This document shows, in pieces, positions 1 to 6,663 of a stretch of DNA of 6,663 nt. Source of the DNA: Bacteroidota bacterium (lineage in GTDB: Bacteria; Bacteroidota; Bacteroidia; Bacteroidales; UBA1556). Below the pieces are notes generated by a model that ran no database searches, had not been told where the DNA came from, and saw only the letters and a program-made list of their open reading frames with translations. Where the stretch lies: NCBI GenBank assembly GCA_003973505.1, contig QNXT01000127.1:1-6663 (forward strand), written 5' to 3'. The translations under genes and the position numbers were made by a program. Within the stretch, counting starts at the first letter, position 1. Every line of letters begins with the position of its first letter.

Positions 1-29
1 CAACATTGTATTGATGGGTACAGAGCAAT

Positions 30-112
30 CCAAAGCGTTCAAGACAAGGCATGGGTCGCAGGCAATGGTTATTCCCTTGGCAAGACCCATAACGCCGTAT
101 TGGACGCTTTGG
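30..112. repeat. Variable-arm hairpin unit A
   Basis: The outer stem pairs CCAAAGCGT (30-38) with ACGCTTTGG (104-112). The inner stem pairs ATGGGTC (51-57) with GACCCAT (84-90), perfectly over 7 bp. The inner stem encloses a 26-nt core (58-83) that begins GCAGG and ends CAA and can form a small inner stem of its own. AGGC precedes the inner stem and AAC follows it, as in the other units. Whether it acts as RNA, as single-stranded DNA or only as transposon structure cannot be told. Confidence 0.75.
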
Positions 113-126
113 GTTTCTCCCTTCGG

Positions 127-225
127 GCGAGCCAGAAAGCGGTCATCCACGTTGTTGCACTTTTTGTGAAGGGAGTGACCATTCCCTGCAAAGTGCGCCT
201 AGTGGCTAACCGCTTTCTGACTCGC
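127..225. repeat. Variable-arm hairpin unit B (inverted relative to A)
   Basis: This is a long nested hairpin. GCGAG (127-131) pairs with CTCGC (221-225), the 11-bp CAGAAAGCGGT (133-143) with ACCGCTTTCTG (209-219), CCAC (147-150) with GTGG (202-205), and GCACTTT (157-163) with AAAGTGC (190-196). The core between the innermost arms is again exactly 26 nt (164-189). Read on the minus strand it matches the core of unit A at about 20 of 26 positions, while the 7-nt arms are unrelated. Confidence 0.75.
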
Positions 226-257
226 TGTATCCATCAATACAATATTGTTGGAGTACT

Positions 258-317
258 AGGCGTGCTTCGCAGGGAATGCTTATTGCCTTCACAAGAAGCG
301 GAACGACGGAGATGATG
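258..317 (+). repeat. Variable-arm hairpin unit C, partial
   Basis: The unit starts with AGGC (258-261), overlapping the last bases of the 1-259 element. Arm GTGCTTC (262-268), a 26-nt core (269-294) and arm GAAGCGG (295-301) follow. Five base pairs plus one G-T wobble hold the arms together. The core matches that of the 6545 copy at 21 of 26 positions, and the following AACGACGGAGATGA resembles AACAACGTGGATGA at 6648-6661. The 5' half of the unit is missing here, probably because the 1-259 element inserted at its CTAG. The right limit is uncertain. Confidence 0.6.
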
Positions 318-338
318 CTATGGAGGCTTACCCTACGG

Positions 339-386
339 GACAACGCCAAGTTTCTAAGTTTGAGGCATTGAAAACTTGGCGTTGTC
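339..386. repeat. Perfect 15-bp inverted repeat upstream of icd
   Basis: GACAACGCCAAGTTT (339-353) is exactly complementary to AAACTTGGCGTTGTC (372-386), with an 18-nt loop. No T-tract follows on either strand, so it is not a classical terminator for the + strand. It lies about 75 bp upstream of the candidate -10 box of icd. It may be an intergenic repeat, an mRNA-end stabiliser for a gene outside the window, or an operator; nothing seen here decides between these. Confidence 0.7.
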
Positions 387-408
387 AGAATTTATCTAGG
401 TTAATTAG

Positions 409-2727
<2,319 letters not shown>

Positions 2728-2850: not shown

Positions 2851-2949
2851 TTTTACCCTCACGCCCTTCGATAAGCCCAGAAAACTAGTACTCCATCAAT
2901 ACAATGTTGCTGGAGTACTAGGAGCTTGTCGAAAGGGTGGGTAATAAAA
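2851..2949. repeat. REP-like hairpin split by a small mobile element
   Basis: TTTTACCC (2851-2858) and GGGTAATAAAA (2939-2949) are the outer flanks. CCCTTCGATAAGC (2864-2876) pairs with GCTTGTCGAAAGGG (2924-2937) apart from one wobble and one mismatch. The sequence is of the same CCCTTCGA type as the dyad just upstream. Its loop holds an independent 37-bp palindrome (2885-2921). Confidence 0.65.
2885..2921. mobile_element. 37-bp deletion derivative of the CTAGTACTCC element
   Basis: CTAGTACTCC (2885-2894) and GGAGTACTAG (2912-2921) are perfect inverted ends around a 17-nt middle. From 2893 to 2921 the sequence matches the right terminus of the 1-259 element (231-259) at 27 of 29 bases. On the left only the outermost 8-10 bases remain. 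Removing it leaves one CTAG inside the host hairpin loop. Confidence 0.7.
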
Positions 2950-3063
2950 TCAGAATCACAGATTGATACCATTAGCATTTTTAAACCAAATGGCTTACAT
3001 AGCCGTACCTCAAGGATTTAGGTTAAAACTTATGGCTACCAACTTAAAGCGGAACATAACTCG

Positions 3064-3127
3064 TTCCCATGCTCCAGCGTGGGAATGCAGCTTGAATGCT
3101 CCAGCGTTCCGAACGCAATGCAGGAGC
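3064..3127. repeat. Tandem GCTCCAGCG hairpins
   Basis: TTCCCATGC (3064-3072) pairs with GCGTGGGAA (3077-3085) around a TCCA loop, with one G-T wobble. A second hairpin follows: GCTCC (3098-3102) with GGAGC (3123-3127), enclosing GCGTTC/GAACGC (3104-3116). Both share GCTCCAGCG, and they look like dispersed intergenic palindromes. Upstream, 2950-3060 shows no gene; ATAGCC and ATGGCTA there could pair weakly. Confidence 0.55.
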
Positions 3128-3149
3128 CTTGCAAGCTACAGCTCCACCG

Positions 3150-3289: not shown

Positions 3290-4956
3290 TAGACATTAAT
3301 GAATTAATGATATTCATACTATTATTTATTGTTTTTCATAATAAAGTTTCAAATAGTTTGCTCTATAGTTGGTTTTTTACCGCTATGATTGTCAAATTAC
3401 CTTTTTATTCTATCTCACTATCATGTCCTTTTATAAGTCATCTAAAACATAGCAAGCATTATTATTCATTTTATTTGTTTGGAATATTGATGTCAGGGGG
3501 GTTATGGGGGACTTTATATTTCTTAATGATTCCTCGTCTTGATATTTATTATCAAATGTTTTTAACCCTTGTCGGAGCAGGTGTTGCTACCGTGGCATTG
3601 TATGCTTTTATGCCGAATATAAGGGCTTTTCTTTATTATATATTGCCCGCAATAATGCCGCTTTCTTGGGGGTATTTCCAAGTAGATAGTGCTGCTCATC
3701 ATTTAATAGGTTGGCTACTTATTGTATTATTTTTTATCGTACTCTTTACTATAAAAAATATAGCACTAGTTTATAAAAAACTCAATGATGCTGTTGTAGA
3801 GGCACAACGAGCCAATCAAGCAAAGTCAGAATTTTTAGCAAATATGAGTCATGAAATGCGTATTCCAATGAATGCGATTGTTAGCATCGGAAATTTGCTG
3901 CAAGCAGACTATCTATCAAAACAAAAACAAAAAGATTATCTACAAAAATTACAATTATCATCAGCTACTCTTTTGCAGACATTAAATGGTATTTTGGATT
4001 TATCAAAGATCGAAGCAAAAAAAATGCAGTTGGATTTGAGTGATTTTCAATTAGTAGACCTTGTCGATACCATGAAGTCGATGTTTGCCGCACAAATAGA
4101 AAGAAAGCAACTTTATTTCACGGTTAAAGCAGATGATTGTTTGCAACATTACTTAAAAGGGGATGTATTAAAATTAGGTATAGTGCTACAAAATCTTATC
4201 TCAAATGCCATTAAATTTACTAATGAAGGTGGTATAACACTTGAGATAAGAGAATTATTTCATAATAAAGATTATACCAGTATAGGCTTTACCATTCGTG
4301 ATACAGGAATAGGTATTAGTGAAGAAGGTCAAAAAACACTGTTTATGCCTTTTTACCAAGTCAATATTTCGGACTCCCGCCAATACGGTGGCACAGGAAT
4401 CGGATTATCTATTAGTCAGCAACTACTGCATTTAATGGATAGCCACATAAGCGTAAAGAGTACACCTAGTAAGGGAAGTGCATTTTCTTTTCAGGTTAGT
4501 TTCAAACAGCTAGAGACAAAAGAAACCCTTGCAATAGCAGACGAACCTAAAAAAACAATCCGCCAGACGTTAGAAGTTGTCCCTAAATTTAAGGGTAAAT
4601 CTATTTTAATTATTGATGATGATGAATTGAGTCGTTTTTTCGTTAAAGAGCTATTAGATTGCTTTGGTGTGAGTAATATTTTTGAATCATCCACAGCAAA
4701 AGCAGGTGTCGAGCGTTTAAAGCAACAGGATATAGACTTATTATTACTCGATATTCAAATGCCAGAAATGGATGGTTATGAAGTCGCAACACTGATACGT
4801 GACAACCCAGAATGGAATAATTTGCCTATTATTTGTTTAACGGGTTATGCGCATGAAGATGATCGTCGCAAAGCATTAAAGGCAGGGGCTACTCGTGTCC
4901 TCTTAAAGCCCGTAGAACCTGAATTATTACGTACCACTTTGTTAGAGTGCTTGTGA
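3286..4956 (+). CDS. Membrane-bound hybrid sensor histidine kinase/response regulator
   Basis: From the ATG at 3286 the protein has 556 residues. About six hydrophobic segments (roughly 5-18, 24-42, 62-82, 88-108, 112-130, 139-160) form the sensor. A short helix leads to a HisKA domain with H-box FLANMSHEMRIPMNAIV and phospho-acceptor H189. The HATPase domain (about 290-404) has the N-box (N303, N307), G1 box DTGIG (339-343) and G2 box GGTGIGL (368-374). A receiver domain (about 437-556) has acidic D444-D446, phospho-acceptor D489, T519 and K541. No HPt domain follows, so a separate phosphotransfer partner or an intramolecular role is expected. The signal is unknown. The usual Thr after the H-box is Ile (I193). 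The open frame runs upstream to a GTG at 3079, but that start lies inside a repeat hairpin and adds a low-complexity, non-membrane stretch, so 3286 is preferred. The N-terminus may be slightly shortened by the repeats. Confidence 0.88.
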   Translation: MIDINELMIFILLFIVFHNKVSNSLLYSWFFTAMIVKLPFYSISLSCPFISHLKHSKHYYSFYLFGILMSGGLWGTLYFLMIPRLDIYYQMFLTLVGAGVATVALYAFMPNIRAFLYYILPAIMPLSWGYFQVDSAAHHLIGWLLIVLFFIVLFTIKNIALVYKKLNDAVVEAQRANQAKSEFLANMSHEMRIPMNAIVSIGNLLQADYLSKQKQKDYLQKLQLSSATLLQTLNGILDLSKIEAKKMQLDLSDFQLVDLVDTMKSMFAAQIERKQLYFTVKADDCLQHYLKGDVLKLGIVLQNLISNAIKFTNEGGITLEIRELFHNKDYTSIGFTIRDTGIGISEEGQKTLFMPFYQVNISDSRQYGGTGIGLSISQQLLHLMDSHISVKSTPSKGSAFSFQVSFKQLETKETLAIADEPKKTIRQTLEVVPKFKGKSILIIDDDELSRFFVKELLDCFGVSNIFESSTAKAGVERLKQQDIDLLLLDIQMPEMDGYEVATLIRDNPEWNNLPIICLTGYAHEDDRRKALKAGATRVLLKPVEPELLRTTLLECL

Positions 4957-4959
4957 ACA

Positions 4960-5445
4960 ATGTTACTTGTAAAAGAAATACCTTTGCCAATACTACGTCA
5001 TTTGTTATCAAAATTTGAATTAGAGCTAGTCCTATTAAAAGAGCAGGAAAAAATATTAGGATCATTTTGGGGAGAGCCAGAAGCAGGACTTATTAAACAA
5101 AACGTCTACGTACGACCCGACACCCCTATTCAATCACTATTACATGAAACTTGCCATGCGATTTGTGTCGATGAGAAGCGACGAAAAAATCTACACACCG
5201 ATGCAGGAGGTCGTACCGCAGTCGAAGAAAATGCTGTCTGTTATTTACAAATATTATTAGCTGATGAAATTCCTGAAATGGGTAAAAAAGTAATGTTCAG
5301 CGATATGGATGACTGGGGTTATAGCTTTCGCTTAGGATCAGCAAAAAAATGGTTTGAAGAAGATGCCGATGATGCAAGGGAATGGCTTATGCGCTATGGT
5401 TTAATCGATAAAAATGAAGGCGTAAACTTTATTTTACGCAAATAG
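4960..5445 (+). CDS. Small putative zinc metallopeptidase-like protein (HExxH)
   Basis: The 161-residue soluble protein carries HETCH at 62-66 within SLLHETCHAIC, then EENAVCYLQILL beginning at E89. The HExxH pair followed about 22 residues later by a Glu-rich helix is the layout of gluzincins. It resembles in outline the ImmA/IrrE (M78) arrangement, where EEExANxFA follows HExxH. Membership in a named family is not established from sequence alone. The charged second half includes DMDDWGYSFRLGSAKKWFEEDA (split as DMDDWGYSFRLG and SAKKWFEEDADD, about 112-135). There is no signal peptide. It begins 3 nt after the kinase stop without a clear ribosome binding site, so translation is probably coupled. 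Substrate and role are unknown; the kinase next door may be only an operon partner. Confidence 0.75.
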   Translation: MLLVKEIPLPILRHLLSKFELELVLLKEQEKILGSFWGEPEAGLIKQNVYVRPDTPIQSLLHETCHAICVDEKRRKNLHTDAGGRTAVEENAVCYLQILLADEIPEMGKKVMFSDMDDWGYSFRLGSAKKWFEEDADDAREWLMRYGLIDKNEGVNFILRK

Positions 5446-6544: not shown

Positions 6545-6663
6545 CTAGTACTCCAACAATATTGTATTGATGGATACAGCGAGTCAGAAAGCGGTTAGCC
6601 ACTAGGCGCACTTTGCAGGGAATGGTCGCTCCCTTCACAAAAAGTGCAACAACGTGGATGACC
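6545..6663. mobile_element. Second MITE copy, right end cut by window end
   Basis: It starts CTAGTACTCC and matches the reverse complement of 141-259 at 118 of 119 bases (the only difference pairs with T176). It carries the terminal repeat, the outer stem strand (6580-6594), arm GCACTTT (6608-6614), a 26-nt core (6615-6640) and arm AAAGTGC (6641-6647). The second half of the element should lie beyond the window. Its high identity with the left copy points to recent movement or gene conversion. Confidence 0.8.

Follow-up and report, generated by a model that had tools for sequence, protein, structure and literature searches.

REPINs and BIMEs work with RAYT transposases; their ends are REPs, and they have neither terminal repeats nor target duplications. 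The attC sites of integrons carry complementary RYYYAAC/GTTRRRY boxes. IS5-like MITEs that insert at CTAG are already known, according to the available part of PMC3189936, which also mentions REPINs. The same text describes MITEPsy1 of P. syringae and other IS5-derived MITEs, which are non-coding and insert at CTAG or YTAA; MITEPsy1 is 100 nt long and has been shown to transpose actively (PMC3189936). The transcripts of Correia elements fold and can be cut by RNase III, and ERIC elements can affect transcript decay through RNase E (available part of PMC10969869). Three other groups of repeats are described in the parts of the papers that were available: R178 (101 bp, with internal inverted repeats of 11 bp) and R200 (320 bp) of P. 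fluorescens SBW25 (PMC2718517); the betaproteobacterial BRE, which is around 90 bp, can form tandem arrays, and is transcribed at one locus, bprJ (PMC3110155); and a hupL MITE of Thiomargarita with 10-bp direct repeats (PMC4853749).

The window (the whole stretch of DNA that we analyzed, 6,663 nucleotides) begins with hairpins for which we found no published description in the literature that was searched (titles and abstract openings, with partial coverage). Unit A, on the plus strand, has AGGC at 47-50, arms at 51-57 and 84-90 that pair at 7 of 7 positions, a core of 26 nt at 58-83, and AAC at 91-93. Unit B is on the minus strand, with AGGC at 200-197, arms at 196-190 and 163-157 (again paired 7/7), the core at 189-164, and AAC at 156-154. 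Unit C is on the plus strand, with AGGC at 258-261, arms at 262-268 and 295-301, the core at 269-294, and AAC at 302-304; its arms pair at 6 of 7 positions, including one G-U, and its outermost pair is G/G. These are the three hairpins that the earlier note had described, and both the coordinates and matches to a covariance model (R1; E = 1.5e-24, 5.6e-23, and 4.7e-12 for A, B, and C) confirm them. R1 also finds a copy that the earlier note lacked, at 6582-6663 (E = 3.1e-17), which ends at the window's edge. The earlier note had suggested a search of Rfam. We ran this search with Rfam 15, and at the loci scanned, which were the window and 18 others, no family reached its gathering score except for one tRNA outside the module. 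For positions 1-400, a threshold as loose as E = 5 gave two hits to miRNA families, far under the gathering score. So, for the loci scanned, we rejected the idea that the module belongs to an Rfam family.

Units A and B form a single element that is inserted in a CTAG of another element, which includes unit C. Element 1 (1..256) is a double-module MITE whose first bases lie beyond the start of the window; a near-identical copy (L042) supplies the missing left end, CTAGTACTCCAG, and the remnants of the terminal inverted repeats (TIRs) at 1-23 and 225-247 pair with each other. Module 1, with unit A, spans 25..115 on the plus strand (90.8 bits) and comprises an outer stem, the internal loop AAGGC/AACGCCG, the 7-bp stem, and an apical hairpin. 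Module 2, with unit B, is inverted and spans 132..222 on the minus strand (85.4 bits), and its 7-bp stem is at 157-163/190-196. The two are separated by a mini-hairpin that reads CCC-TTC-GGG (119..127); of 114 genomic hits among the matches listed, 85 have CCCNNNGGG after the module. The right terminal repeat of element 1 (about 225-256) is followed by a TA at 257..258, which forms the right border and lies within the CTAG of element C. The border comes from comparison with relatives: three that lack the interruption (L023, L045, and L048) read CATATCCTAGGCGCGCTTCG at the insertion point of element 1. The same comparison delimits the right part of element C, 258..416 on the plus strand (47.6 bits), which is made up of unit C (258-304), CCCTACGGG at 331-339, a remnant of a second module (about 340-387), and a right terminal repeat (about 388-416). 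Unit C has lost its 5' outer arm locally, as this arm is mostly unpaired in the match to R1; element C's own 5' outer arm should lie to the left of the window's start. The terminal repeats of elements 1 and C appear to differ.

Two more elements lie farther along. Element 3 (6548..6663, plus strand, 65.5 bits) is a second, inverted copy of element 1 that runs off the end of the window, with a TA at 6546-6547 in front of it and its module at 6582-6663; positions 6545-6663 are 99% complementary to 141-259 over 119 nt. A solo element at 2888..2918 consists of two terminal repeats with no module and has a TA on both sides. It was recognized as a palindrome, CTAGTACTCC...GGAGTACTAG, at 2885-2921, and P. 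cuatrocienegasensis has similar TIR-only copies of 57-58 nt. The genes between the elements are ordinary: a monomeric isocitrate dehydrogenase (502-2727), a hybrid of histidine kinase and response regulator that ends at 4956, a DUF2058 protein, and a protein with a 2-thiouracil desulfurase domain.

We also noticed other features in the window. There are two GC-rich palindromes of the type CCCTTCGA...TCGAAGGG (2765-2820 and 2865-2940), which look like another repeat family; the second is split, at a TA, by the 31-nt solo element. A repeat-like stretch, TTCCCATGCTCCAGCGTGGGAATGC, is followed by related pieces (3058-3130), and similar sequences presumably occur in other gammaproteobacteria. Finally, 4960-5445 encodes a protein of 161 amino acids with a HETCH-like stretch and no match in Pfam at a threshold of 0.001.

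We scanned a collection of genomes with a pattern that fixed AGGC, GCAGG, AATG, CCTT, and CAA and left the letters of the stem free. Among the matches listed, the arms pair at 7/7 positions in 95 of 121 hits, and the 75 distinct pairs of arms average 6.43 standard pairs, versus 4.19 if the right arms are shuffled (the highest mean in 1,000 shuffles was 4.51). AAC was outside of the search pattern, and it follows directly in 112 of these 121 listed hits. From the 110 listed modules with AAC and full flanks, we selected 49 with under 80% mutual identity (alignment A1). These align over 91 columns with no gap; 23 motif positions and the spacing of the core were fixed by the search pattern, so their invariance is by construction, while the spacing of the outer stem was free. 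The 23 top-scoring covarying pairs in A1 lie on two anti-diagonals, and they define a 91-nt module with an outer stem of 18 bp or more (18 pairs fall within the aligned part), a 6/7 internal loop, the 7-bp stem, a 3/2 internal loop, and, at the apex, a hairpin that has a 5-nt loop and contains a T.C mismatch. An energy-based consensus fold largely agrees with this structure. The conserved parts that are not paired are the internal loops, AAGGC/AACNCNG and GCA/AA. The earlier note had placed GCA opposite seven bases that end with CAA, but it actually faces AA.

Standard pairs fill 88.3% of the pair cells across the 49 modules, versus 58.5% after shuffling and 37.8-47.3% if the arms are slid. 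The covariation score is 0.785, as compared to 0.218 for shuffled arms (0 of 500 shuffles were as high) and 0.11-0.19 for slid arms. Two-sided changes are seen at 27 of the 32 pairs; by itself, this count is reached in 134 of 500 shuffles. So the earlier note was right that the arms pair and covary above background; the outcomes that it had named as counting against it, further copies with unpaired arms or covariation at background level, were looked for, and the results did not refute it. It understated the extent of the unit: the 7-nt arms do pair, but they leave out 25 of the 32 pairs, and the full unit, at 91 nt, includes an outer stem that also covaries. Similarly, its 26-nt core is found in units A, B, and C, but it is not universal, as other modules have apical loops of 4 bases or inserts of about 52 nt. 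Among model matches at 100 loci, 110 of 171 are exactly 91 nt. In a genome that was beyond the pattern's reach, the modules found by the model keep AGGC, GCAGG, and AAC and have shorter apical loops, of 4 bases. A full element folds into a terminal-repeat stem with two arms (z = -10.2), and so does the window's element (z = -10.35). Evolution preserves the fold of the module, not the letters of its stems.

The mispairs within the stems indicate that the selected form is single-stranded. On the module's own strand, G-U-type mispairs outnumber A-C-type mispairs by 103:19 in canonical modules (binomial P = 4e-15) and by 33:12 in partner modules (P = 0.002). (These counts are from 109 of the 171 model matches, namely those of exactly 91 nt, with L063 5613-5703 left out.) For the canonical set (nr38), the ratios are 58:12 in the outer stem, 16:7 in the inner stem, and 29:0 in the core; for the partner set (nr16), they are 21:6, 5:3, and 7:3. 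Also, the distinct stem variants within one Sedimenticola genome give 15:3. A strand bias in mutation at the level of the locus is not an adequate explanation, because both modules show the G-U excess and they are on opposite strands of the same element. An excess of G-U in the module's own strand implies that a single strand, whether RNA or single-stranded DNA, is under selection, rather than a cruciform. The covariation and the asymmetry of the mispairs together support the earlier note's view that this is a selected RNA or single-stranded DNA structure, and we are confident that it is, and that MITEs carry it as cargo.

The Pseudomonas-type element (263-331 nt) consists of a TA, a terminal repeat, an inward-facing module, CCC-NNN-GGG, another inward-facing module, a terminal repeat, and a TA. 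Many Gammaproteobacteria have the module in non-autonomous elements of the IS5 type, frequently with two modules per element, each of which is read inward from its own end. (The second module of the Pseudomonas type, for example L072 6351-6441, has lost the canonical core and keeps AGGC, AAC, and the outer stem; its inner stem often has mismatches.) In P. cuatrocienegasensis, the terminal repeats number 112 in the forward and 108 in the reverse orientation. Of 59 elements of the GGGTCTGTT type, 48 are flanked by TA at both ends, 10 at one end, and 1 at neither, and 0 of 59 have a matching 3-mer. The TIR of the P. cuatrocienegasensis MITE is identical over the first 18 nt on the left and 17 nt on the right to that of an 857-bp IS5-family insertion sequence from two P. 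avellanae plasmids, which matches NF033580 (8.5e-82) and has a TA at both borders; P. putida pGRT1 has a truncated relative. When one of the two copies of this IS was scored with the model, no module was found. The single-module element of S. hydrogenitrophicus, which is 159 nt long, has another kind of terminal repeat, and 49 of 63 Sedimenticola single-module elements have an identical 3-mer duplication (37 TTA and 11 TAA). As in IS5-family MITEs, the elements share their TIRs with an IS (for the Pseudomonas type), duplicate their target, and are short, non-coding, and multicopy. For the window's element 1, the target duplication is visible at the right border only. Because a like module lies under unlike ends and is flanked by unlike duplications, the module is not part of the IS; it is cargo that is kept by several types of MITE. 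The apparent difference between the ends of elements 1 and C shows the same thing within the window.

We found no parent IS for the window's own type of end. At the loci that we examined from genomes with modules, no autonomous partner was recognizable, and the long pairs of ends span neighboring elements. Nor was there a clear autonomous partner in Sedimenticola, where we covered 40 stretches, each about 20 kb long; loosely matching ends occur there at IS-like spacing (for instance, L363, L366, and L372). A comparison of the plasmid copy L135 to L196 gave no clean junction for an empty site. And the transposase family IS5_3 is not associated with the module: it is found in 25 of 62 genomes with the module versus 120 of 237 without it (P = 0.16, Fisher exact test), and 37 of the 62 module genomes have no match to it.

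Copies within a genome show which parts of the element are constrained. We compared 60 copies of the 159-nt element from a single Sedimenticola genome. Their divergence from the consensus is 0.45% at the 22 motif sites, versus 1.9% for the inner stem, 10.9% for the outer stem, and 4.4% and 7.4% for the terminal repeats. (These loci were chosen by their matches to the model, so copies with badly broken motifs may be missing. The 63-element set adds four from a second Sedimenticola strain, which leave the picture of constraint unchanged; 77 pairs of TIRs were recovered, versus 91 forward and 91 reverse ends.) Variants that are common to several copies fall at motif sites once, versus 11.1 expected (P = 2e-4), and private variants are mildly depleted there (4 versus 7.5 expected, P = 0.13); the contrast between private and shared variants is not significant (Fisher P = 0.16). 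This hints that motif-broken copies arise but fail to spread, in which case selection would act at propagation. In 8 of the 9 Sedimenticola elements of 210-212 nt, about 52 extra nt lie in the apical loop and the rest is largely intact; in the ninth, the insert is in front of the module. Across the Sedimenticola module variants L342-L350 and L335-L337, the inserts in the apical loop range from about 30 to 120 nt and contain further hairpins.

The elements are often found at the ends of genes. Of 85 elements in a mixed set, 19 have an upstream reading frame that stops 25-70 nt short of the module (12 at TAG, 5 at TAA, and 2 at TGA; 8 of these stops are at one distance), and 13 of the 63 Sedimenticola elements adjoin a stop codon. 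The TA of the target and the G with which the element begins together spell TAG, so that an insertion into a stop codon restores a stop. Single-module elements are not preferentially in sense with the gene upstream of them (18 of 45, P = 0.23), nor are those of an overlapping set (22 of 57, P = 0.11), which argues against a role at the level of mRNA. These tests rely on a simple codon-usage gene caller; a crude ORF caller placed 34 of the 85 modules within ORFs, but these are probably false ORFs that are driven by the palindromes, and they were excluded from the tests of orientation. We also considered that the window's copies might be intrinsic terminators, and rejected this, as positions 1-500 contain 0 terminator-like sites (a GC hairpin plus a run of T).

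We tentatively propose, at somewhat less than even confidence, that the active form of the module is RNA. Transcription that enters the element from either side would meet the first module in the sense orientation, and its RNA would fold as it is transcribed. A widely conserved, hypothetical host protein would then bind via the two conserved internal loops; the earlier suggestion of the internal loop as a candidate protein-binding site is plausible. The bound module might insulate or process the transcript, which would make insertions beside stop codons tolerable and so favor the element's spread. We favor RNA because of the G-U pattern, the tolerance for inserts in the apical loop, the frequent placement at gene ends, and the precedent of RNase-sensitive MITEs (available part of PMC10969869).

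The module might instead act as folded single-stranded DNA, for instance on the lagging-strand template, and serve the element's own transposition. This is possible, but we doubt it. At each end of the element, a terminal repeat and an inward hairpin could help to build a transposition complex or bring in a replication factor, and the dyad-symmetric, inward-facing modules at both ends would fit. The symmetric layout and the missing sense bias bring this reading close behind RNA. DNA hairpins, too, tolerate G-T better than A-C, so the excess of G-U-type mispairs fits this reading as well. The constraint on the motif lies mainly in shared, propagated variants, and there is a weak trend for the module strand to run against GC skew (18 positive versus 27 negative, P = 0.23; Wilcoxon P = 0.078). 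However, the test for GC skew does not reach significance, double-stranded DNA is the substrate of IS5 transposases, and single-module elements spread well (63 copies). Furthermore, the IS5-family element with matching ends lacks the module, and its terminal repeat still occurs at 3 to 10 places in each of five P. avellanae plasmids (two of which were inspected).

In either form, it is conceivable, though we would not bet on it, that the module is a selfish structure: a passenger of several IS5-subgroup MITEs that raises the copy number of its carriers via a single-stranded fold to which a conserved protein of proteobacteria binds. With the same reserve, it could be viewed as a hyperparasite of transposons that is defined by its shape, not by a gene or by its ends. 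If the fold does drive the spread of MITEs, it would bear on why some elements without a transposase become so numerous, and on whether bacterial MITEs carry selected cargo as opposed to leftover sequence.

Could the fold be kept as double-stranded DNA, either as a cruciform or as a protein-binding site with fixed spacing? The spacing of the motifs is nearly constant, and perfect or near-perfect palindromes can extrude. But extrusion involves both strands, so that each G-T would lie opposite an A-C and no bias would be expected, versus the 103:19 that is observed; and a plain DNA site does not need complementary arms. We disfavor this explanation and consider it unlikely.

It is slightly less likely again that the module has no function and that its arms match because template switching or gene conversion rewrites both sides together. 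In P. cuatrocienegasensis (L157-L301), the two terminal repeats of a copy mostly have matching variants (CCC/GGG, GCC/GGC, or GAC/GTC; exceptions include L283 and L286), and other positions are reshuffled between copies. This suggests that one terminal repeat is corrected by the other, which fits such a process, and two-sided changes would then need no selection. However, correction of the arms does not predict conserved unpaired loops, nor does it predict that, within one genome, the motif has diverged roughly 10-fold less than the terminal repeats. It would also erase G-U along with A-C, and an excess of G-U is observed. So we disfavor this explanation as well.

There is next to no chance that the module is a coincidence or an assembly artefact of one genome, as it is found in at least 119 stretches from named assemblies and, at E ≤ 0.001, in 62 of the 299 Pseudomonadota genomes that were sampled. 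A class-level sample that overlaps the phylum sample has it in 39 of 143 genomes, and a further overlapping sample has it in 13 of 60. In these samples, the best 14 (phylum), 30 (class), or 72 (60-genome) candidates per genome were scored, so copy numbers are at least those counted. Ten chosen genomes have 6 to 149 modules each (with the best 150 candidates, at most, being scored), and there are 64 in the genome whose elements are almost identical to those of the window. By name, 117 of the 119 stretches from the pattern scan (among the matches listed) are from Gamma- or Betaproteobacteria, one is from a "Proteobacteria bacterium", and one is from an "Aquificaceae". The last, Aquificaceae bacterium MAG 28, is the source of L042 and its near-identical elements; its name is probably wrong, because a query for its phylum gives the same sample of genomes as a query for Pseudomonas. 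We rejected a phage origin: positions 1-320 have no blastn match among 50,697 phage records, and 15 hits of a looser pattern in viral contigs add none to the strict pattern, which (among the matches listed) has 121 hits over all loci and likewise 121 over L001-L119 alone.

A structured element without an Rfam match at the loci scanned is present in about a fifth of the Pseudomonadota genomes that were sampled, and a single genome can have as many as about 150 copies. The stems covary unusually clearly, so standard pull-downs could be used to look for the ligand.

How does the module compare to known systems? R178 and R200, BRE, and the Thiomargarita MITEs are similar in size or host range, are multicopy, and are mostly intergenic, and R178 also has internal inverted repeats (PMC2718517); we set these beside the module by the descriptions in the available parts of the papers rather than by their sequences, and part of the module family may already have been named among them. 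Integron attC sites are an analogy: they also have a strand-specific single-stranded fold, variable stems, and fixed spacing. But the module is not an attC site, as AGGC faces AAC in the alignment and these are not complementary. REPINs and BIMEs also have two strand-specific hairpins, inverted, with many copies per genome. Unlike REPINs, the elements with modules have IS5-type terminal repeats, duplications of 2 or 3 bp, and a 91-nt hairpin with internal loops, so we rejected this identification on anatomy. MITEPsy1 and IS5-derived MITEs are similarly short and non-coding and have terminal repeats like those of the IS5 family; in contrast to our elements, MITEPsy1 has no conserved folded module or covariation reported in the available part of PMC3189936. 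Finally, ERIC and Correia elements are also mobile repeats whose transcripts fold, but according to the available part of PMC10969869, the cuts are in their terminal repeats, whereas the module described here is separate, covaries, has conserved internal loops, and is found in elements with unrelated ends.
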